A stretch of DNA of 64,000 nucleotides from Schumannella soli (GTDB lineage: Bacteria > Actinomycetota > Actinomycetes > Actinomycetales > Microbacteriaceae). The notes beneath the pieces are model-generated. The model had not been told where the DNA came from. It saw only the letters and a program-made list of their open reading frames with translations, and ran no database searches. Shown piece by piece: positions 1 to 6,967 of this stretch (position 1 is the first letter of the stretch; every line of letters starts with the position of its first letter). Position numbers and translations under genes: made by a program. The stretch lies in the NCBI RefSeq assembly GCF_006517435.1, contig NZ_VHQG01000002.1, positions 1,010,799-1,074,798 on the forward strand, in the 5' to 3' direction.

Positions 1-1175
1 AGGCGAAGAGCGTCATCTCGATGATGATGATGAGCTTCGGCGCGATCGGTCTGGTCGGAGTCCTGTGGGTCGTCTACGGCTACGCGATCGCGTTCAGCAA
101 CAACGTCGGCATCGACGGGGTCTTCGGCCTCGACATCAACGCGCTGTTCCTGAACAACCAGCTCGAGGTGCCGAAGGACGCGGCGTTCCCGCCGATCGCC
201 TTCGTCTCGTTCCAGGCGACGTTCGCGATCATCACCGTCGCGCTCATCTCCGGCGCCATCGCCGACCGCGCCAAGTTCGGCGCGTGGATGATCTTCGCCG
301 GCATCTGGGTCACCATCGTCTACTTCCCGGTCGCGAGCTGGGTCTTCAACTTCACCCTCGGCAAGGACGGCTCGATCGTCGACGGCGGCTGGATCGTCTA
401 CGGCCTCAGCCAGACCCCGCTGGGTGTCGGCGTGATCGACTTCGCGGGTGGAACCGCCGTGCACATCAACGCCGGTGCCGCCGCCCTCGCCCTGGCGCTC
501 GTGCTCGGCAAGCGCGTCGGCTTCACCAAGGGCGCCTACGCCCCGCACAACCCGCCCTTCGTCCTCCTCGGCGCCGGTCTGCTCTGGTTCGGCTGGTTCG
601 GCTTCAACGCCGGCTCGGAGGTCGCCGCCGACGGCGTCGCCGCCGTCGCCTTCCTCAACACGATCGTCGCCCCGGCCGCCGCGCTGCTCGCCTGGATCGT
701 CGTGGAGAAGATCAAGGACGGCAAGTCGACCTCGGTCGGCGCCGCCTCGGGTGCCGTCGCCGGTCTCGTCGCGATCACCCCGGCCTGTGCCGCGCTGACC
801 CCGGGCTGGGCGATCCTGCTCGGCATCGTCGCCGGCGCCGTCTGCGCCCTGGCGATCGACCTGAAGTTCAAGCTCGGCTTCGACGACTCGCTCGACGTGG
901 TCGGCGTGCACCTGGTCGGCGGTCTCATCGGAACGCTCTACCTCGGCATCTTCGCCAACGGCACCGGCCTGATCTTCAGCGGCAGCTTCAACCAGCTCGC
1001 CGTCCAGGCGATCAGCGCCCTCGCGGTCCTCGTCTACAGCTTCGTGCTGGCCTTCGCGATCGGCTTCGTGATCGAGAAGACGATCGGATTCCGCATCAAG
1101 AACGAGGACGAGGTCGCCGGCATCGACCAGGCGGTTCACGGCGAAGAGGGCTACGTCCTCACCGCCGAGCGCTGA
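1..1175 (+). CDS. amt: Ammonium transporter Amt (5'-truncated by window edge)
   Basis: Integral membrane channel that conducts ammonium/ammonia into the cell as a trimer. The reading frame is open from base 3, so the start lies outside the window; the run of Met codons at 21-32 is the internal SMMMM stretch usual at the end of the first Amt helix, not a start. The two pore histidines are visible in GTAVHINAG and VVGVHLVGG (residues 148 and 297 counted from base 21), as is the DFAGG signature before the first. About 390 residues are present of a usual 400-450. A strong hairpin follows the stop. The next gene is a degenerate relative of this one. Usual Amt partners (GlnK) would lie upstream or elsewhere and are not seen. 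Confidence 0.95.
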   Translation, partial: AKSVISMMMMSFGAIGLVGVLWVVYGYAIAFSNNVGIDGVFGLDINALFLNNQLEVPKDAAFPPIAFVSFQATFAIITVALISGAIADRAKFGAWMIFAGIWVTIVYFPVASWVFNFTLGKDGSIVDGGWIVYGLSQTPLGVGVIDFAGGTAVHINAGAAALALALVLGKRVGFTKGAYAPHNPPFVLLGAGLLWFGWFGFNAGSEVAADGVAAVAFLNTIVAPAAALLAWIVVEKIKDGKSTSVGAASGAVAGLVAITPACAALTPGWAILLGIVAGAVCALAIDLKFKLGFDDSLDVVGVHLVGGLIGTLYLGIFANGTGLIFSGSFNQLAVQAISALAVLVYSFVLAFAIGFVIEKTIGFRIKNEDEVAGIDQAVHGEEGYVLTAER

Positions 1176-1194
1176 TCCTCAGCTCTCCCTGCAC

Positions 1195-1226
1195 CGGCGC
1201 CCCGGCTCTTCGGAGTCGGGGCGCCG
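1195..1226 (+). terminator. Terminator after amt
   Basis: The 10-bp arms CGGCGCCCCG and CGGGGCGCCG pair exactly, and inside them CTC-TTCG-GAG extends the stem around one mismatch. It lies 20 bases after the amt stop. A clear T-tract is missing, as is common in GC-rich actinobacteria. Confidence 0.7.
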
Positions 1227-1266
1227 TCGTGTGCGCGCGTGCTCGACTCGGCGATCGACCGCGAAG

Positions 1267-1287
1267 CGCGGGTCGCGGGTCGCGGGT
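1267..1287. repeat. Three tandem copies of a 7-bp unit
   Basis: CGCGGGT is repeated three times without error between the amt terminator and the next gene. No function is apparent. The stretch after it ends in TAGGGT (1354-1359), a plausible -10 for the gene starting at 1381. Confidence 0.6.
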
Positions 1288-1380
1288 CGATTTCCCGTCG
1301 GATGTCCGGCATCCGCGACCGCGTCGCGGCCGGGCCGCGGCGTCCGCCCCGCCTAGGGTCATGACCGGGAGGTCGCGGCG

Positions 1381-2394
1381 ATGATCTGGACTCTGCCGGC
1401 CGCGATCCTCGCCGCCGCTCTGCTCGCTCTGGCGGGCACGCTGCTCGTCCGCGCCTCGGTGCGGATCCGGTTCTGGGTGCCCCTGGGCGCCGGCCTGCTC
1501 GCGGTGCTCGTGACGGCCGCTCTCGCCGCGGCGCTGGGCGGGATCTCCCCGCTGTTCGGCGCCACGATCGCGAGCGGCGCCGCGCCGATCGCCGTGCCTC
1601 TCGCGGCCGCGCTCTCGCGCGGGCCCCGAACCGGAGTCCGCGAGCACATCGCCGTCGCCGTCTGGGCCGCCGTGATCGTGCCGCTCGCGATCGTCGTGCC
1701 CGCGCGGATCGTCGCGACGTGCCCGCCGACGTCCTGCGTCGTCGAGGACTTCGGAGGAGCGCTGCCCTTCGTCGTCGCGGTCGGGGGCTTCCTGCTCGTG
1801 CCCTCGGTGGGCACCATCGGGCTCAACCGGCTGCGCAACGGCAGCGGCAGCCGGCTGATCGACCTCGTCGCCGGTCTCGCCGTGGTCCCGCTCTTCGCCG
1901 TGTGGCTCGCGGCCGCCGAGGGCGACGTCGACGACTACACGAACGGGCTCGTCATCTCGGGTCTCGCCGCGCCGGCGCTCGGCGCTCTCGGCTGGCTCAC
2001 CGTCGACCGTCTGCGCGGTGTACGGGCCACGACCGGACGGGCGCTGCGGATGGGCGCGATGGCCGGGATGGCGGTGATCCTTCCCGGAGCCGCGGCCATG
2101 ACGCCACCGTGGCTCATCGGACTGGGCTTCGTCGGTGGCTGCGTCGGCGCCCTCGCCCACGACGCCCGCGCCATCGTCTCCGCGCCGGAGGCCCTTCGCG
2201 CCGCCGTCACGGCGCTGACCCTCGGCGCGGTCGGCATGGTCGCCCCCGGCATCCTCGGCACGGCGATCGGCTTCGTCTTCGCCGCCCGCACCGACGTCAC
2301 GGGGTCGCAGTTCGTCGCGACCCTCGCGGTCGCCGCGGGCGCGACCGCGCTGTCGCTCCCCGTCGCCGTCCTCGGCCGCCGCCGCGGCCGCTGA
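1381..2394 (+). CDS. Degenerate Amt-like membrane protein without pore histidines
   Basis: A 337-residue multi-helix membrane protein. It aligns along its length with the amt product next door: the block around TPPWLIGLGFVGG (241-253) matches the Amt block ALTPGWAILLGI, CVVEDFGGALPF (119-130) matches the segment holding the first pore histidine, and ILGTAIGF (291-298) the last. By hand alignment the two pore histidines are Val131 and Ala278 here, and the Trp/Phe-rich helix of Amt is reduced. It therefore should not conduct ammonium by the known mechanism. ATG 1381 follows GGGAGG with good spacing. It could be a sensor, a regulator of the neighbour, or a decaying duplicate that is still intact as a reading frame. 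Homology is read by eye, not from a search. Confidence 0.75.
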   Translation: MIWTLPAAILAAALLALAGTLLVRASVRIRFWVPLGAGLLAVLVTAALAAALGGISPLFGATIASGAAPIAVPLAAALSRGPRTGVREHIAVAVWAAVIVPLAIVVPARIVATCPPTSCVVEDFGGALPFVVAVGGFLLVPSVGTIGLNRLRNGSGSRLIDLVAGLAVVPLFAVWLAAAEGDVDDYTNGLVISGLAAPALGALGWLTVDRLRGVRATTGRALRMGAMAGMAVILPGAAAMTPPWLIGLGFVGGCVGALAHDARAIVSAPEALRAAVTALTLGAVGMVAPGILGTAIGFVFAARTDVTGSQFVATLAVAAGATALSLPVAVLGRRRGR

Positions 2395-2455
2395 CCGGAC
2401 GACCGCCGACGGCGCAGCCCGGCACGCTGCCCGGCGCCGGTGCGAAGATCGCCGG

Positions 2456-2950
2456 GTGAGCGACGAAGCCCTCCGCAGCACGACCGTCACCTGGACCGAC
2501 CCGAGCACGACAGCGTCGGAGATCCGACGGCTCTCGGGCATGGAGTACCTGCAGCGGCTCAGGGATCGCACCCTCCCGGCGCCGCCGATGGGGTCGCTCA
2601 TCGATGCCGAGTTCGCCGCGGTGGAGCCCGGTCGCGTCGTGATGAGGGCGACGCCGGGGGAGCAGCACCTCAATCCGCTCGGCACGGTGCACGGCGGCTT
2701 CGTGTGCACGCTGCTCGACACCGTGGCGGGATGCGCAGCGCACTCGGTGCTCGAAGCCGGGGTCGGCTACACCTCGATCGAGCTGAAGGTCAGCTATCTC
2801 CGAGCGGTCGCGCCCGACGGTCGGCCGGTCACGGCGACCGGGACGGTCACGAAGGCCGGCTCCCGCGTCGTGTTCGTGGATGCGGTGGCCGTCGACGCCG
2901 AAGGCCGCACGGTCGCGACCGCATCCTCGTCACTGCTCGTGCTCCGCTGA
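2456..2950 (+). CDS. PaaI-type hotdog thioesterase
   Basis: A 164-residue single hotdog-fold protein, probably hydrolysing acyl- or aryl-CoA thioesters in the cytoplasm. The segment NPLGTVHGGFVCTLLD (73-88) is the PaaI/YdiI-family active-site helix, with the HGG turn that binds the thioester, and Asp88 sits where many family members place the catalytic acid. GTG at 2456 is chosen because the hexamer GAAGAT ends six bases before it, suggesting a leaderless transcript, and no good ribosome-binding site is present. It stands alone between the amt pair and the tRNA cluster. The substrate cannot be told from sequence. Confidence 0.85.
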   Translation: MSDEALRSTTVTWTDPSTTASEIRRLSGMEYLQRLRDRTLPAPPMGSLIDAEFAAVEPGRVVMRATPGEQHLNPLGTVHGGFVCTLLDTVAGCAAHSVLEAGVGYTSIELKVSYLRAVAPDGRPVTATGTVTKAGSRVVFVDAVAVDAEGRTVATASSSLLVLR

Positions 2951-3005
2951 CGTCCGGATCGCCTCCGAGGGGCCGGGATCGAACCAGCCACCCCGACAAC
3001 GAGCG

Positions 3006-3031
3006 AAGGCCCCCGATTCCTCGGGGGCCTT
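3006..3031. terminator. Bidirectional terminator between thioesterase and tRNA-Val
   Basis: Perfect 11-bp stem AAGGCCCCCGA / TCGGGGGCCTT with loop TTCC. It serves the minus-strand tRNA-Val(CAC) and could also end transcripts of the thioesterase gene. Confidence 0.85.
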
Positions 3032-3054
3032 CCTGCTGTCGTCACCGACTGCGG

Positions 3055-3127
3055 TGGGCGATACCAGACTCGAACTGATGACCTCTTCCGTGTGAAGGAA
3101 GCGCGCTACCAACTGCGCCAATCGCCC
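3055..3127 (-). tRNA. tRNA-Val (anticodon CAC)
   Basis: A 73-base cloverleaf. The acceptor stem GGGCGAT pairs with ATCGCCC, the anticodon stem is CTTCC/GGAAG around loop TTCACAC giving CAC, and the T-loop TTCGAGT is normal. CCA is not encoded. It is transcribed away from the Gly-Cys-Val cluster and ends in the hairpin at 3006-3031. Confidence 0.95.
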
Positions 3128-3220
3128 GTCGGGATGATTCTGCCACACCTCGGAGACCGTTCCCGACCATCCGCGTGAACAGCGTGCGCACGGTCCGCGA
3201 CACGCCCGGGTCTACCCGTT

Positions 3221-3249
3221 TTGGACACCCGCCGCGGATCGGGTACAGT
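3221..3249 (+). promoter_or_regulatory. Promoter of the tRNA Gly-Cys-Val operon
   Basis: TTGGAC (3221-3226) and TACAGT (3244-3249) are separated by exactly 17 bases. The expected start of transcription near 3256 leaves a short leader before tRNA-Gly at 3282. It is the best housekeeping-type promoter I can see in the first 10 kb. Confidence 0.75.
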
Positions 3250-3281
3250 CATTCTCGCCCCGAGGGAAACCGCGGGGAAAT

Positions 3282-3354
3282 GCGGATGTGGCGCAGTTGG
3301 TAGCGCACAACCTTGCCAAGGTTGGGGTCGCGAGTTCGAGTCTCGTCATCCGCT
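3282..3354 (+). tRNA. tRNA-Gly (anticodon GCC)
   Basis: 73 bases. Acceptor GCGGATG pairs with CATCCGC; anticodon stem CAACC/GGTTG encloses TTGCCAA, giving GCC; T-loop TTCGAGT. First gene of the three-tRNA operon. Confidence 0.96.
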
Positions 3355-3386
3355 CGAGTGAAGGCTCGCGGTCCAACGGGCCACCT

Positions 3387-3457
3387 GGTGGCGTGGCCGA
3401 GAGGCGAGGCACCGGCCTGCAAAGCCGTTTACACGGGTTCGAATCCCGTCGCCACCT
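3387..3457 (+). tRNA. tRNA-Cys (anticodon GCA)
   Basis: 71 bases, the usual length for tRNA-Cys. Acceptor GGTGGCG pairs with CGCCACC; loop CTGCAAA gives anticodon GCA; T-loop TTCGAAT. Second gene of the operon. Confidence 0.95.
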
Positions 3458-3483
3458 CGCTCTCAACTGAATAGCCTGTTTAG

Positions 3484-3555
3484 GCGCGATTGGCGCAGCG
3501 GTAGCGCGCTTCCCTGACACGGAAGAGGTCACTGGTTCGATCCCAGTATCGCGCA
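3484..3555 (+). tRNA. tRNA-Val (anticodon GAC), integration target
   Basis: 72 bases. Acceptor GCGCGAT pairs with ATCGCGC; anticodon stem CTTCC/GGAAG around CTGACAC gives GAC. Its last bases plus four downstream (CAGTATCGCGCACCCC, 3544-3559) recur exactly at 5104-5119, so this gene is the attachment site of the cassette described next. The tRNA itself is intact, as expected when an element brings a replacement 3' end. Confidence 0.95.
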
Positions 3556-3559
3556 CCCC
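3538..3559 (+). repeat. Left attachment repeat (tRNA-Val 3' end)
   Basis: Contains CAGTATCGCGCACCCC (3544-3559), identical to 5104-5119. Extending leftwards, CGATC also matches, with one C/T difference at 3543 against 5103. Confidence 0.8.
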
Positions 3560-3587
3560 AAACTCCCCTGGATTTCCAGGGGAGTTT
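3560..3587 (+). terminator. Terminator of the tRNA Gly-Cys-Val operon
   Basis: Perfect 12-bp stem AAACTCCCCTGG / CCAGGGGAGTTT with loop ATTT, starting right after the attachment repeat. By the insertion model this hairpin was brought by the element and replaces the one now at 5162. Confidence 0.88.
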
Positions 3588-3820
3588 CGTTATTTAAGGC
3601 CTCTGAAGCGCCGATTTTCGCGCTATTCCTGCGTAGTGGCTTTAGAGCTCGTGCAACGAGACAGTTCCTCGGCGTGGCGAAGCTGGAAGATGCCCGGCGG
3701 CGAACAACACTGCAGGCGACAGATCGGGTGCCTTCGGCTCACGAGGCGGCGCGAATCCCAGCTCGAATGGGGACGGGCCGTTTCGCCATCACCCCGGCCG
3801 CTTGAATGCCGCGCACACTC
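3588..3820. other. Non-coding left part of the cassette
   Basis: No convincing gene or integrase remnant is visible. The first 50 bases are AT-richer than the surroundings (GTTATTTAAGG). An open frame from 3636 has no sensible product and runs through the palindrome, so it is not called. Confidence 0.5.
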
Positions 3821-3856
3821 CCAAGGGCTGTTCTATGATCATAGAACAGCCCTTGG
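3821..3856. promoter_or_regulatory. Perfect 36-bp palindrome, probable operator/promoter of the HTH gene
   Basis: The left half CCAAGGGCTGTTCTATGA is followed at once by its exact reverse complement, with no spacer and no mismatch. The centre contains TATGAT (3834-3839), a good -10 hexamer, readable on both strands because of the symmetry; a matching -35 is not evident. A start near 3846 would leave a 22-base leader with GAGGAG at 3858-3863 and the ATG at 3869. A dimeric helix-turn-helix protein encoded next door binding here would shut off its own promoter. There is no T-tract, so a terminator is unlikely. Confidence 0.75.
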
Positions 3857-3868
3857 TGAGGAGTAGCC

Positions 3869-4447
3869 ATGACCGTCGTCGAAGACCTTCGCCGTGCACG
3901 GGCCACCAGCCACACCACGCTCAGCCAACTCGCCGAGCTCACCGGCCAGACACGCTCGAACCTGTCGACCCTGCTTGCAGGTACCCGAGACCCGCAAGCG
4001 TCGACCATCGAGCGAGTCGCCAACGGACTCGGGCTCACCGTCATCGCCGCGCCCCTCGGGAACCGTGCCACCGTCGCACAGCTCGTCGACCGCATCGCGG
4101 ACGCCGTCAGCACCGGCAACACCTCTCGCGCGTACCGGTCATACATTCAGATCGCGGACAATCTCGAGGCCGCCGACCCATTCACCCGGATCCTGCTCGC
4201 CGCCCAAGAACCCGCGTCGATCGACGCCCGCTACGACGCCGCAGTAGCCGCAGTCGTCGACTGGCGACTCAGCGCCGCCGGTCTGCCCACCCCGCACTGG
4301 GCCGCCAACCGCTCGGGCGACCCCGAAGACCGCTGGCGCATCCCCGCCGAGTTCGACGACGACCAGCTCCCAGACGCCGCCGACGTGCCCGACTCATTCC
4401 GCAACCGCGGCATCTGGATCGACGCAAAAGAGCTGACCAGCGCATGA
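3869..4447 (+). CDS. HTH regulator, antitoxin-like partner of the nucleotidyltransferase
   Basis: 192 residues. Residues about 15-58 form an XRE-type helix-turn-helix (LSQLAELTGQTRSNLSTLL then ASTIERVANGLGLTV). The second half is a separate domain ending in FRNRGIWIDAKEL (177-189), a C-terminal pattern I associate with actinobacterial HTH proteins paired with DUF6036 nucleotidyltransferases. Start ATG 3869 follows GAGGAG. The stop overlaps the next start as ATGA, so the two are translationally coupled. The family pairing suggests an antitoxin that binds the 36-bp palindrome and represses the operon; this is inference. It sits inside the tRNA-Val cassette, and its codon use differs from the neighbours. 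Confidence 0.8.
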   Translation: MTVVEDLRRARATSHTTLSQLAELTGQTRSNLSTLLAGTRDPQASTIERVANGLGLTVIAAPLGNRATVAQLVDRIADAVSTGNTSRAYRSYIQIADNLEAADPFTRILLAAQEPASIDARYDAAVAAVVDWRLSAAGLPTPHWAANRSGDPEDRWRIPAEFDDDQLPDAADVPDSFRNRGIWIDAKELTSA

Positions 4448-5028
4448 GCAGCGGAGAACTCAGCCGCGACGACATCATCGCCGGCCTCCAGGACATCATC
4501 GCTGCAATGCGCGCCATGAAGCAGAGGGGACGCATCCGCATCGTCGGCGGTGCCGCCATCTGGCTCGGACACTCCGCCCACCGCGAAGCCACAGTCGACG
4601 TGGACGCGCTCATCACACCCCGTGACGAAGTGCTCACCATCGCTCGTACTGTGGCGACCCGCCGCGGCTGGCCCGACGACTGGATCAACGACGCCGCAGC
4701 GCAGTTCCTCCCATCCGGGATGGGGCAACCGGCTGGCTGGATCAGCATCTTCGACGAAGACGGCATCATCGTGGAGTACGCCGACGACCGCACCCTGCTC
4801 GCGATGAAGATGCAGGCCGCCAACCGCCGCGGTCGCCGGGATATGGCCGACATCCTCGCCCTCGTCGCCAAGCTCGGCATCCGAGACGCCGACGAAGCCG
4901 AAGAAATCTACGGCAACTACTATCCCGGGGACGCGCTCACCGAGCGCGCCAGAGTGCTGCTCGACAATGCCTTCGAGCAGGGTATTCCCGACATCGAAAA
5001 CCCAGACCCAATCCCGCCGCTCGGCTAG
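4444..5028 (+). CDS. Nucleotidyltransferase-like protein, DUF6036/AbiEii-type, putative toxin
   Basis: 194 residues from ATG 4444, overlapping the HTH stop by four bases. RIRIVGGAAIWLG (29-41) matches the GG motif and ATVDVDAL (49-56) the paired metal-binding acidic residues of the minimal nucleotidyltransferase fold; both aspartates are present. Proteins of this family occur as the second gene of HTH/nucleotidyltransferase pairs, some of which act as toxins or abortive-infection effectors by modifying RNA or protein. A longer open frame starting at 3802 is rejected because it crosses the HTH gene in another frame. Glu codons are often GAA, unlike the surrounding core genes. Toxicity and target are not shown by sequence. 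Confidence 0.78.
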   Translation: MSSGELSRDDIIAGLQDIIAAMRAMKQRGRIRIVGGAAIWLGHSAHREATVDVDALITPRDEVLTIARTVATRRGWPDDWINDAAAQFLPSGMGQPAGWISIFDEDGIIVEYADDRTLLAMKMQAANRRGRRDMADILALVAKLGIRDADEAEEIYGNYYPGDALTERARVLLDNAFEQGIPDIENPDPIPPLG

Positions 5029-5097
5029 CCGTCGTCGGGCACCCGACAGCACCCGCCAAACCGAGAAGGTCAGGACGGTCGCGCAGCAGCAAGCGGG

Positions 5098-5119
5098 CGA
5101 TCTCAGTATCGCGCACCCC
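5098..5119 (+). repeat. Right attachment repeat
   Basis: Copy of the tRNA-Val(GAC) 3' end: 16 bases identical to 3544-3559, 21 of 22 with the extension. Only the 3' fragment is present, so there is no second tRNA. Confidence 0.8.
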
Positions 5120-5161
5120 GATTCCTCGAGATGGCTCGAGACGGCTTGCTCGAAGTTCATG

Positions 5162-5185
5162 AAGCCCCTGGTTCGCCGGGGGCTT
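5162..5185 (+). terminator. Terminator beyond the cassette, probably the displaced tRNA terminator
   Basis: AAGCCCCTGG pairs with CCGGGGGCTT (one G-T pair) around loop TTCG, followed by TCGTCG. It ends the nucleotidyltransferase transcript now and likely ended the tRNA operon before insertion. Confidence 0.75.
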
Positions 5186-5331
5186 TCGTCGTCTCCGGGG
5201 CGATCCGCGCGCTCTCTGAGATCTTCCTCAGACGAGCGCGCTCGGATCACGCCCGGCGTCCAGAGCGGCTCTCCTAGCCTGCGAGCACGCCATCGATTCC
5301 CGTCCTCCTCAGCATCTGGGGCTTCGACCCC

Positions 5332-6180
5332 GTGGCCGCGACCGTCATCGTCGTGGCCGCCGCGGCGTACCTGATCGGCGTCGCGCGGGTGGCTCGGGCC
5401 GGCGGGAGATGGCCGCTGCACTCGACAGCGCTCTTCGTCGCCGTCGGCCTCGGGTCGTTCGCGGCGGTCTCCTTCGGCGTGCTCGGAGTGCTCAGCGCCG
5501 ATCTTCGCTGGGCCTTCACGACCCGCGTCGCGCTGCTGCTCGTCGTCGTGCCTGCGGCGATCGCCGCGGGTCGCCCGCTGGCGCTGCTCCGTGCCGCCTC
5601 GGGGGAGCGGGGCCGGGCGCGACTCGATCGAGTGCTCGCGAGCCGCGTCGTGCGCCTCTTCGGCAACGCCATGTTCGCAACGCTGTCCTCCGCGGCGGTG
5701 TTCACACTGTTCCTGACGCCACTGGCGGGCATCGCGCGAACCTCGCCCGCGACCGAGGACGCGCTGACCGTGGTCGTCCCGATGCTCGGACTGCTCATGG
5801 TGCTGCCGATCGCCGAGGATGCCGCGGCGCGGACGTCGCTGTTCATCACCGTCGAGTTCCTGCTCGCCTTCGTCGAGCTGATCATCGACGCGATCCCCGG
5901 CATCGTGCTGCGCATCACGCCGGCCGTGCTCGACCAGGTTCCGCGTGCGGCGGCCCTCGCCTCCTGGTGGCCGAGCCCGCTGCGCGACCAGCAGCTCGCC
6001 GGCGACCTGCTGTGGTTCATCGCCGAGGTCGCCGACGTGCCGATCCTGATCGTGCTCGGTATCCGTTGGGCCCGCTCCGACCGGCGCGAGGCGAGGAGCT
6101 ACGACGAGCTCAGTGACGAGGAGCTCGCCGAACTCACCCGGCAGCACCTGCACGGTCCGCGAGCCGCGCCCGACAGATGA
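5332..6180 (+). CDS. ctaG: Cytochrome c oxidase assembly protein, CtaG (caa3) family
   Basis: A membrane protein of at least 282 residues with about seven hydrophobic helices, matching the caa3_CtaG family involved in copper delivery to or assembly of cytochrome oxidase. Recognisable features are the early WPLHSTALF segment, FGNAMFATLSSAAVF, and the late WWPSPLRDQQLAGDLLW. The start is uncertain. GTG 5332 is the only standard start in frame, but the frame is open to 5278 and encodes SIPVLLSIWGFDP just upstream, which looks like genuine family N-terminus. An ATT at 5296 is the only near-cognate candidate there. The gene lies 150 bases after the cassette's terminator, so its original promoter may have been separated from it by the insertion. 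Confidence 0.8.
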   Translation: MAATVIVVAAAAYLIGVARVARAGGRWPLHSTALFVAVGLGSFAAVSFGVLGVLSADLRWAFTTRVALLLVVVPAAIAAGRPLALLRAASGERGRARLDRVLASRVVRLFGNAMFATLSSAAVFTLFLTPLAGIARTSPATEDALTVVVPMLGLLMVLPIAEDAAARTSLFITVEFLLAFVELIIDAIPGIVLRITPAVLDQVPRAAALASWWPSPLRDQQLAGDLLWFIAEVADVPILIVLGIRWARSDRREARSYDELSDEELAELTRQHLHGPRAAPDR

Positions 6181-6328
6181 GGCACGCGGGCGGGGAGGCG
6201 GACCGCGGCCGAAGGGCGCTCCGCGATGGTCGTGACCGCCGCGCACATCCGTGCGATCCCGACCGAGCAGCACGGCCGCGCACTACGCTGATCGCGACCG
6301 GCGGAGCAGCCGAGCGGAAGGAAGACCG

Positions 6329-6967
6329 ATGGCACTGGGCAGGGAATTCGTCGCCGACTGGATCGCGCGCAGCGCGCAGGCGATCAGCGAGCACCGCAGC
6401 GAGCTCATCACCCTCGACCGGGAGATCGGGGACGGCGATCACGGCGAGAACATGGATCGCGGTTTCACCGCCGTCGCCGTGAAGTCGGGCGACCTGCCCG
6501 CCGACGCGACGCCCGGCGATGTGCTGAAGGTCGTCGCGACGACGCTCATCTCGACCGTCGGCGGCGCATCGGGTCCGCTGTACGGCACCGCCTTCCTCAA
6601 GGGCTCGCAGGCCGTCGCCGACCAGTCCGAACTCGACGGAGCGGCGCTCGTCGCCTTCCTCACCGCCGCCCGCGATGGCATCGTGCTGCGCGGCAAGGCC
6701 GAGGTCGGCGACAAGACGATGATCGACGCCTGGACCCCTGCGGTGGATGCCGCGGCAGCAGCTCAGGCGGAGGGCCGGAGCGAGGCCGAGATCCTCGCCG
6801 CCGCCGCGGACGCGGCTCAGACGGGCGCCGAGTCGACCGATCCGCTCGTCGCGCGCAAGGGCCGTGCCAGCTACCTCGGCGAGCGGGCCATCGGGCACCG
6901 CGACCCGGGTTCGGTGTCGACTACGCTCATCCTGCGCGCCGCAGCCGACGCGGCGGCCGCCGCGTGA
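6329..6967 (+). CDS. dhaL: Dihydroxyacetone kinase subunit DhaL
   Basis: The 212-residue ADP-binding subunit of PTS-dependent dihydroxyacetone kinase, which holds a tightly bound nucleotide that shuttles phosphate from DhaM to dihydroxyacetone bound on DhaK. REIGDGDHGENM (31-42) carries Asp35 and Asp37, which with Asp30 are the magnesium ligands of the family. GGASGPLYG and ASYLGERAIGHRDPGS are also typical. ATG 6329 is preceded by GGAAGGA; a longer open frame upstream has no ribosome-binding site. TACGCT at 6290-6295 could be the -10. The stop overlaps dhaM as GTGA. The usual first gene, dhaK, is not upstream. Confidence 0.93.
   Translation: MALGREFVADWIARSAQAISEHRSELITLDREIGDGDHGENMDRGFTAVAVKSGDLPADATPGDVLKVVATTLISTVGGASGPLYGTAFLKGSQAVADQSELDGAALVAFLTAARDGIVLRGKAEVGDKTMIDAWTPAVDAAAAAQAEGRSEAEILAAAADAAQTGAESTDPLVARKGRASYLGERAIGHRDPGSVSTTLILRAAADAAAAA

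Follow-up and report, generated by a model that had tools for sequence, protein, structure and literature searches.

The 64,000-nucleotide stretch of the Schumannella soli genome analysed here (the window; contig NZ_VHQG01000002.1, positions 1,010,799 to 1,074,798) carries a 1,560-bp insertion in the 3' end of its tRNA-Val(GAC) gene. This insertion, or cassette, holds two coupled genes and no integrase, and what had been an anonymous gene pair can now be read as a probable MenAT-like toxin-antitoxin (TA) system; the sister species lacks the insertion. We suggest that the cassette is a 1.56-kb TA islet that was lodged in the tRNA 3' end by site-specific recombination, is now most likely immobile and is kept by addiction or protection; to this explanation as a whole we give a probability of about one half. 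The window object itself is of a known general kind. The most interesting outcome of the analysis is a set of small TA cassettes on tRNA ends in Micromonosporaceae, which provides a lead for specialist follow-up.

An insertion with a TA-type gene pair in tRNA-Val(GAC)

The cassette and its surroundings comprise the following features.

3484-3557, plus strand: tRNA-Val(GAC), target of the insertion (ARAGORN; Rfam tRNA, 68.9 bits)
3538-3559, plus strand: left attachment repeat, the 3' end of the tRNA and the bases after it (22-bp direct repeat; E 4.9e-6)
3560-5119, plus strand: DNA inserted relative to the sister genome, 1,560 bp (comparison with G001, locus L060)
3560-3587, plus strand: terminator-like hairpin that came with the insertion (hairpin scan; not at the same place in G001)
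3821-3856, no strand: perfect 36-bp palindrome, putative operator of gene 1 (repeat search)
3869-4447, plus strand: gene 1, 192 aa, with an N-terminal helix-turn-helix (HTH) domain (Pfam HTH_31 3.7e-7, HTH_3 1.9e-6), probable antitoxin/repressor
4444-5028, plus strand: gene 2, 194 aa, nucleotidyltransferase, probable toxin (weak DUF6036/AbiEii matches; residues; predicted fold)
5098-5119, plus strand: right attachment repeat, one mismatch (direct repeat search)
5162-5188, plus strand: original tRNA-Val terminator hairpin, beyond the insertion (sequence; same hairpin 3' of the tRNA in G001)

The left repeat, CGATCCCAGTATCGCGCACCCC, recurs 1,560 bp downstream as CGATCTCAGTATCGCGCACCCC with one mismatch in 22 bp, and a copy of this quality has an E value of 4.9e-6 in the sequence downstream of the tRNA. 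The repeat search thereby confirmed the duplication from which an earlier reading of this DNA, made from the sequence only, had started. G001 and the window are 98% identical as far as the tRNA end. In G001 one uninterrupted tRNA end is followed by CCCCGATTCCTC and then by GAAGCCCCTGGTTCGCCGGGGGCTTTCG, with the hairpin that now lies at 5162 in the window, whereas in the window CCCCGATTCCTC is placed after the right repeat. Because the flank seen in G001 follows the right repeat in the window, the inserted DNA is 3560-5119, a clean insertion of 1,560 bp. A chance repeat is ruled out by the E value together with the empty site in G001, and the cassette shows both hallmarks of a tRNA island, a direct repeat of the tRNA 3' end and an empty site in a relative. 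The sequence-only reading had predicted exactly this empty site, a tRNA end followed by the terminator now at 5162, and its claim that the old terminator survives beyond the right repeat also holds, since the hairpin at 5162-5188 matches the one 3' of the tRNA in G001.

G002 and G004 likewise have a single uninterrupted tRNA end, with different DNA downstream, and G003 has other DNA at the locus on a contig that ends shortly after. The gene pair was not found in G001, G002 or G003. G004, from the window's genus, has only a distant homologue of the pair (34%) at another tRNA: it lies 203 bp behind tRNA-Lys(ctt) (L223:7080-8513) with the palindrome TGTAGCTGTAGCTACA upstream, and this tRNA-Lys site varies among congeners.

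The G+C content of the cassette is 65.8% against 71.2% in the window. Of the new terminator and palindromic operator that had been proposed, the hairpin at 3560-3587 (12 pairs; also a 13-bp perfect inverted repeat) and the 36-bp palindrome are present, and the operator role stays putative. The terminator scan found one terminator against a shuffle mean of 0.9, so that the scan alone proves little, and it made no call for the hairpin at 5162-5188.

The claim of a coupled TA-type pair of an HTH protein and a nucleotidyltransferase stood up well: the genes overlap, the HTH domain of gene 1 is recognised by Pfam and the catalytic residues of gene 2 are intact. The ATG of gene 2 overlaps the TGA of gene 1 (ATGA); the start at 4444 is our own reading, the mechanical list of open reading frames (ORFs) opening the frame far upstream at 3802. 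Gene 1 exceeds the Pfam cut-offs for HTH_31, HTH_3 and HTH_26 only, has a C-terminal domain in common with the antitoxin of the Micromonospora type A cassette described below and, judged by these domains, is a probable antitoxin/repressor. Gene 2 stays below the Pfam cut-offs for AbiEii (17.8 bits against 22.5, over 46 residues) and DUF6036 (17.1 bits against 23.6), and NCBIfam and PADLOC gave no convincing family for it. Seventeen aligned homologues have the residues G35 G36, D52 D54, K122, R129, R132 and D136 in common without exception (GG, DxD, K, RxxR, D). The predicted structure of gene 2 (pLDDT 91.9, pTM 0.87) gave VIA Z scores of 8.5 with ANT(2'')-Ia, 7.7 with MenT4, 7.4 with MenT1 and 7.3 with TglT/MenT3, where a Z of 7-8 is middling by the tool's own note, and an alignment profile of the gene 2 family matches MenT1 weakly (8an4, E 0.019). 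Combining motifs and structural model, we suggest that gene 2 is a probable toxin with a MenT/ANT-like predicted fold and that the pair is a probable MenAT-like TA system. The atypical Glu codon use ascribed to the pair is mainly a property of gene 2, with GAA/GAG at 8/3 compared with 3/5 in gene 1 and 1/10 in the flanking CtaG gene, all of them small numbers. A phage origin was considered and rejected, since phage records gave no match to gene 2 at E 0.01; 27 plasmid records have distant homologues, all below 60% identity, and a first scan of genome contigs with gene 2 gave no match.

Related pairs behind tRNA genes and the Micromonosporaceae cassettes

Homologues of gene 2 were found in 94 of 398 family genomes and 57 of 394 class genomes, the window genome being counted in both. 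The locus set consists of 120 loci, namely the 60 best and 20 weaker places from the family search, which gave well over 100 places with further weaker ones outside the set, and 40 of the best from the class search. In 113 of the 120 the gene next upstream is a gene 1 homologue; if the window is included, the count is 114 of 121. A tRNA gene lies within about 8 kb of the pair in 32 loci, and the nearest one faces the pair with its 3' end in 30 and with its 5' end in two; after merging, by reading of the table, four duplicates from the same genus and the same tRNA, the count is 26 of 28 (about 1.5e-6, one-sided binomial, our own arithmetic). Sequence of 7 kb on both sides was available in only 84 of the 120 loci, which lowers the number of loci with a tRNA and should not bias direction. 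Seven pairs are less than 500 bp from a tRNA, all at its 3' side and none at its 5' side. Homologous pairs prefer tRNA 3' ends, and the expectation that the same family would recur behind other tRNA genes is borne out.

For most relatives of the pair, the surroundings are larger or have no defined limits. L073, at tRNA-Glu, is a complete island of small size: it spans 4.66 kb, has 101-bp repeats and carries a 21-bp repeat inside each of its ends. L205 is a 5.4-kb unit at tRNA-Arg with a 45-bp copy and an integrase in pieces. L077 is an insertion behind tRNA-Arg, the match ending no more than 35 bp after the tRNA in eight of nine congeners and before the tRNA in G093; L084 is part of an insertion that, relative to G129, measures 3.9 kb at most and carries other genes too. 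A match to our integrase profile, which was made in this analysis and covers only integrases like its seeds, lies within 8 kb of the pair in nine of the 120 loci (L073, L087, L100, L106, L110, L164, L178, L205 and L209). The integrase is in pieces in L087, L205 and L209, and the L110 match is in two overlapping frames.

Related cassettes were found in Micromonosporaceae. At L191 (G491) the pair lies behind tRNA-Ala, and 61 genomes of its genus were searched for empty sites. At 85-90% DNA identity the pair lies at tRNA-Met (G792), about 0.3 kb behind tRNA-Lys (G806), at a partial tRNA end (G774) and with no tRNA nearby (G779); the search gave further matches at 77-80% identity. About 120 bp after the pair, L191 and L226 have a common motif. 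An exact scan with 18 bp of it returned 50 stretches, nearly all from Micromonospora (including Verrucosispora), Salinispora and Plantactinospora and one from Streptomyces. A 108-bp right-end profile, the last 18 bp of which were fixed by the search and the 90 bp before were not, was built from the stretches that it then matches; it recognises 48 of the 50 (the Streptomyces one is not matched) as well as L191, L224 and L226, and nothing else among 303 loci. Delimited from the tRNA or the previous site to the next site, 36 cassettes are under 2.6 kb, and 34 remain after removal of L224 (identical to L191) and L289 (identical to L226).

These cassettes (L254-L303, L191 and L226) are mostly 0.9-1.8 kb long, end in the conserved 108-bp right end, sometimes stand in tandem and are anchored at the 3' ends of tRNA-Met, -Lys or -Ala or at another cassette's right end; in L300 four right-end sites follow one another. 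Among 60 cassette starts placed from the sequence, two duplicate loci included, 31 follow a right-end site and 25 a tRNA-like end; of the four that do not fit the strict pattern, three have a site that is visibly degenerate. The match rate at random positions is 0.2-0.3%. Starts at a tRNA or a site are partly given by construction; the independent observation is that copies of one type keep their start and length after different anchors. Type B measures 878-881 bp in seven of seven copies, one after tRNA-Met, two after tRNA-Lys, one after tRNA-Ala and three after a cassette end. Type A, which carries the nucleotidyltransferase, measures 1,144-1,146 bp in all three distinct delimited copies (L191, L226 and L255), which follow tRNA-Ala, tRNA-Met and the end of another cassette.

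Pfam searches with representative proteins gave a FitA-like antitoxin, PIN (three), HTH_3, a weak Gp49, Phd/YefM (five), ParE and YoeB (two), with the type A enzyme above the cut-off for DUF6036/AbiEii and no Pfam match for the type A antitoxin. Guided by these matches, and by reading of the remaining translations, we recognise TA genes in 29 of the 34 cassettes. The five without recognised TA genes are in L258 (794 bp), L266 (2,398 bp), L277 (2,334 bp) and L278 (1,495 bp and 504 bp); L258 was considered as a nucleotidyltransferase cassette and rejected, having no match to the profile. No complete integrase was found in the cassettes with our profile, and nearly all have no integrase sequence at all. 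L285 (1,895 bp, E 1.6e-7) and L277 (E 5.8e-4) hold integrase-like fragments, and some cassettes are therefore composite. The tRNA-Ala of L231, L232, L243 and L248 is followed directly by an integrase frame, so that part of the conserved tRNA-Ala flank belongs to the end of an integrative element and does not represent an empty site; these integrases may be candidates for action in trans. The exact right-end 28-mer is in none of the viral contigs, and right-end matches in plasmids and phages are tRNA or nucleotidyltransferase stretches among the matches listed (20 of 97 and 20 of 366 records). An RNA fold of the right end showed no covariation, the hairpin lying within the 18 bp fixed by the search pattern and the null only shuffling columns.

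The type A antitoxin lacks a recognised HTH and has a C-terminal domain in common with gene 1 (32% over 81 aa; profile 5.8e-21, single target), and the gene 2 profile recognises the type A enzyme (about 4e-34); by these similarities the window pair and the type A cassette belong to a single TA family. Their ends are unlike each other, the right end of the window cassette copying its own tRNA and that of the Micromonosporaceae cassettes being one conserved site, and therefore the window cassette resembles them at most in outline and its membership is not established. It (L001) has no match to the right-end profile among the 303 loci (nhmmer, E 1e-3), where only loci of the Micromonosporaceae group match. 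The proposal of a minimal island class is best supported by the Micromonosporaceae TA cassettes; the window cassette is at most a candidate for a comparable class.

In the usual view, plasmids, islands and integrons carry TA pairs from place to place as cargo. Our data suggest a further route, on which single modules dock on the ends of tRNA genes and on the tRNA-like ends of each other. Under a fuller model, which we put forward as speculative and on balance rather unlikely, tRNA 3' ends would be the docking sites of a cassette system without a recombinase of its own: in Micromonosporaceae single TA modules would start immediately after the CCAC of a tRNA 3' end, the conserved right end of each would imitate a tRNA T-arm and acceptor end (GGTTCG...CCAC) and thereby offer the next cassette a docking place, a recombinase would move them in trans, and the window would hold a Microbacteriaceae counterpart whose end is a copy of tRNA-Val. 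Not all loci are so tidy: at L225 the pair lies behind a partial tRNA end with no right-end site after it, and L227 and L228 have only the gene stretch in common, L228 having no tRNA in the 1.5 kb examined. If true, the docking route would explain integrase-less islets behind tRNA genes, and cassettes with defined ends, defined lengths and several target tRNAs are a testable object in the search for the missing recombinase.

Origin and mobility of the window cassette

The statement that the cassette has no integrase is upheld: it contains only the two coupled genes, and our integrase profile has no match at positions 1-14000 of the window. Integrase-bearing islands were found in tRNA-Val(GAC) itself in other genera (L128, L129 and L130), and their integrases form one clade (44-65% identity). 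Both ends of these islands and of L073 have a direct repeat in common (L128 10 bp, L129 10 bp, L130 11 bp, L073 21 bp), which lies 34-62 bp inside the left end and 126-141 bp inside the right end. The inner ends of the window cassette have no arm-type repeat: the longest direct repeat is 8 bp, equal to the shuffle median of 8, the sole direct 7-bp repeat of the left end is one pair 49 bp apart, and the sequence 126-141 bp inside the right end codes for the nucleotidyltransferase. An arm-site candidate, GGCACCCGA, with a 9-bp inverted match (3724-3732/5038-5046) was dropped, since the islands have direct repeats and 9 bp is within the range of shuffles. In 396 family genomes, with two candidates scored per genome, neither a second copy of the cassette nor a clear relative of its noncoding ends was found, the one match to the ends being of 28 bp in G132 (E 5.7e-4), and an all-against-all comparison of the flanks of the 120 other loci gave no relative of these ends.

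Because the ends carry no repeats beyond the shuffle median and have no clear relative, we think that the cassette is immobile now. In our preferred explanation, the recombinase would have acted in trans or been lost. The HTH domain of gene 1 would repress the operon via the 36-bp palindrome and its C-terminal domain would neutralise the toxin; gene 2 would be a MenT-like enzyme that, when free of gene 1, adds nucleotides to RNA, most likely tRNA. The cassette may be kept since loss of a TA system is costly to the cell (addiction), or for protection against phages or stress.

Several observations weigh against this explanation. The unit is neat, its two repeats and two genes all being intact, and a decayed island does not have to look like this. 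In six other pairs of the same orientation the profile match begins 169-306 bp behind a tRNA 3' end, and a seventh pair starts about 210 bp behind a copy of the tRNA-Met 3' end; this resembles a rule more than decay. In Micromonosporaceae, moreover, related pairs seem to travel as units of about 1.1 kb. Arm sites are not required by other types of recombinase, and the contrast with the islands is modest: the 10 and 11 bp observed in L129 and L130 were reached in 60 single-base shuffles (maxima 12 and 11), and for this reason the contrast rests also on the common positions of the repeats. As to function, Foldseek with the gene 2 model gave no match at E < 0.001, so that the fold assignment rests on the middling Z scores and the motifs.

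Two loci deserve mention beside these. The copy of the tRNA-Met 3' end (36 bp, L111:7183-7218) is found 5.2 kb behind the tRNA, a layout that would fit the later entry of an island between the tRNA and the pair. G033 has a second tRNA-Val(GAC) insert flanked by attachment repeats (L126:1340-3550; 2.2 kb, no integrase match). It contains a ParE-toxin gene (Pfam 9.5e-8) and, next to this, a weak antitoxin match; its largest ORF has no Pfam match, and the label 'relaxase-like', given to it by eye, was dropped. L126 agrees with the view that TA genes are the part left over, but does not prove it.

Alternatively, the cassette could be a living minimal unit that was inserted and is moved in trans by integrases of other tRNA-targeting elements, a possibility that we take seriously without finding it probable. 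The preference for tRNA 3' ends (30 of 32 loci, 26 of 28 after merging) argues for it, as do the Micromonosporaceae TA cassettes, which include this TA family and start at various tRNAs without a complete integrase, and integrases exist in the family in the tRNA-Val islands L128, L129 and L130. The trans movement proposed by the sequence-only reading is thus backed as far as a tRNA-targeted insertion and the recurrence of the pair at tRNAs are concerned, whereas the search of 396 family genomes, with two candidates scored in each, for a second copy and for relatives of the ends (the G132 match apart) and the search for arm-type end repeats speak against it. So do the three phage-type integrases fetched from the window genome, two of which are only 23-28% identical to the tRNA-Val integrases while the third gave no alignment. 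We find it improbable that the pair is simply an accessory cargo of larger tRNA-targeting islands, the islet being merely a small one with no special link to tRNA ends. TA genes are common on islands, and the integrase islands L073 and L205 do carry the pair, but seven of 120 pairs lie within 500 bp of a tRNA, all of them behind its 3' end and none at its 5' end, which would speak against this reading.

A tandem duplication of the tRNA tail that was later filled with genes, without any site-specific insertion, is very improbable. Extra copies of the tRNA-Val 3' end do occur at 94-137 bp spacing in twelve fetched family genomes, but these units are about 0.1 kb long and have a hairpin before the tail copy that the window does not have, and G001 has no such unit, a comparison that makes this origin unlikely. 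The units behind tRNA-Val(GAC) in the twelve Microbacteriaceae genomes (L137, L157 at 1403-1631, L158, L155, L135, L136, L124, L125, L152-L154 and L156) are of about 94-137 bp, some of them in tandem, and usually consist of a terminator-like hairpin, a long hairpin and the tail copy (L157 and L136 were folded); Rfam recognised only tRNAs in L137, L155, L157 and L158. The rtT repeats behind E. coli tyrT have a similar arrangement. In several genomes (L124, L125, L127, L132 and L133) the tRNA-Gly/Cys/Val trio occurs twice as a whole block, the two copies being 0.5-3.8 kb apart.

Comparison with known systems

Literature searches on TA systems with nucleotidyltransferases and trans-acting integrases returned no comparable system among the matches listed, judged by title and start of abstract, and those on TA cassettes with tRNA genes, integrons, Micromonospora and Salinispora returned no such system among the matches listed. 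No mention of DUF6036 was found; most subscription journals lie outside the scope of the search, so that this is no proof of novelty.

The Micromonosporaceae cassettes resemble integron gene cassettes in being small, mostly TA, tandem and of one module, each with a conserved terminal site. They differ in docking at a tRNA 3' end instead of an attI beside intI and in that no complete recombinase was found in them; in the 8-kb stretches examined, 2 of the 34 cassettes hold integrase-like fragments and integrases lie near others. With integrase-bearing tRNA islands and actinobacterial integrative elements, the window cassette has in common the tRNA 3' end as target, the direct repeat and a hairpin behind the left repeat (as in L128-L131), and it differs from them in its length of 1.56 kb and in lacking both an integrase and end repeats like those of L128-L130 and L073.

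The likeness to AbiE (AbiEi/AbiEii) lies in the weak AbiEii match of gene 2 (17.8 bits, cut-off 22.5). With 28.3 bits for AbiEii and 32.3 bits for DUF6036, the Micromonospora type A enzyme exceeds both cut-offs, and the window gene 2 is below both. Searches of Pfam, NCBIfam and PADLOC at E up to 1 gave no match of gene 1 to AbiEi, so that the upstream AbiEi by which AbiE is recognised was not found. Passages of PMC10435456 and PMC11375011 describe MenT toxins as modifying tRNA, which blocks translation, and as being restrained by diverse MenA antitoxins. Gene 1, an HTH protein with a C-terminal domain of its own, may set the pair apart from the MenAT systems. What the window pair has in common with MenAT (MenT1, MenT3/TglT and MenT4) is the two-gene operon and a nucleotidyltransferase whose predicted fold may be similar (Z 7.2-7.7 to MenT1, MenT3 and MenT4, middling values).

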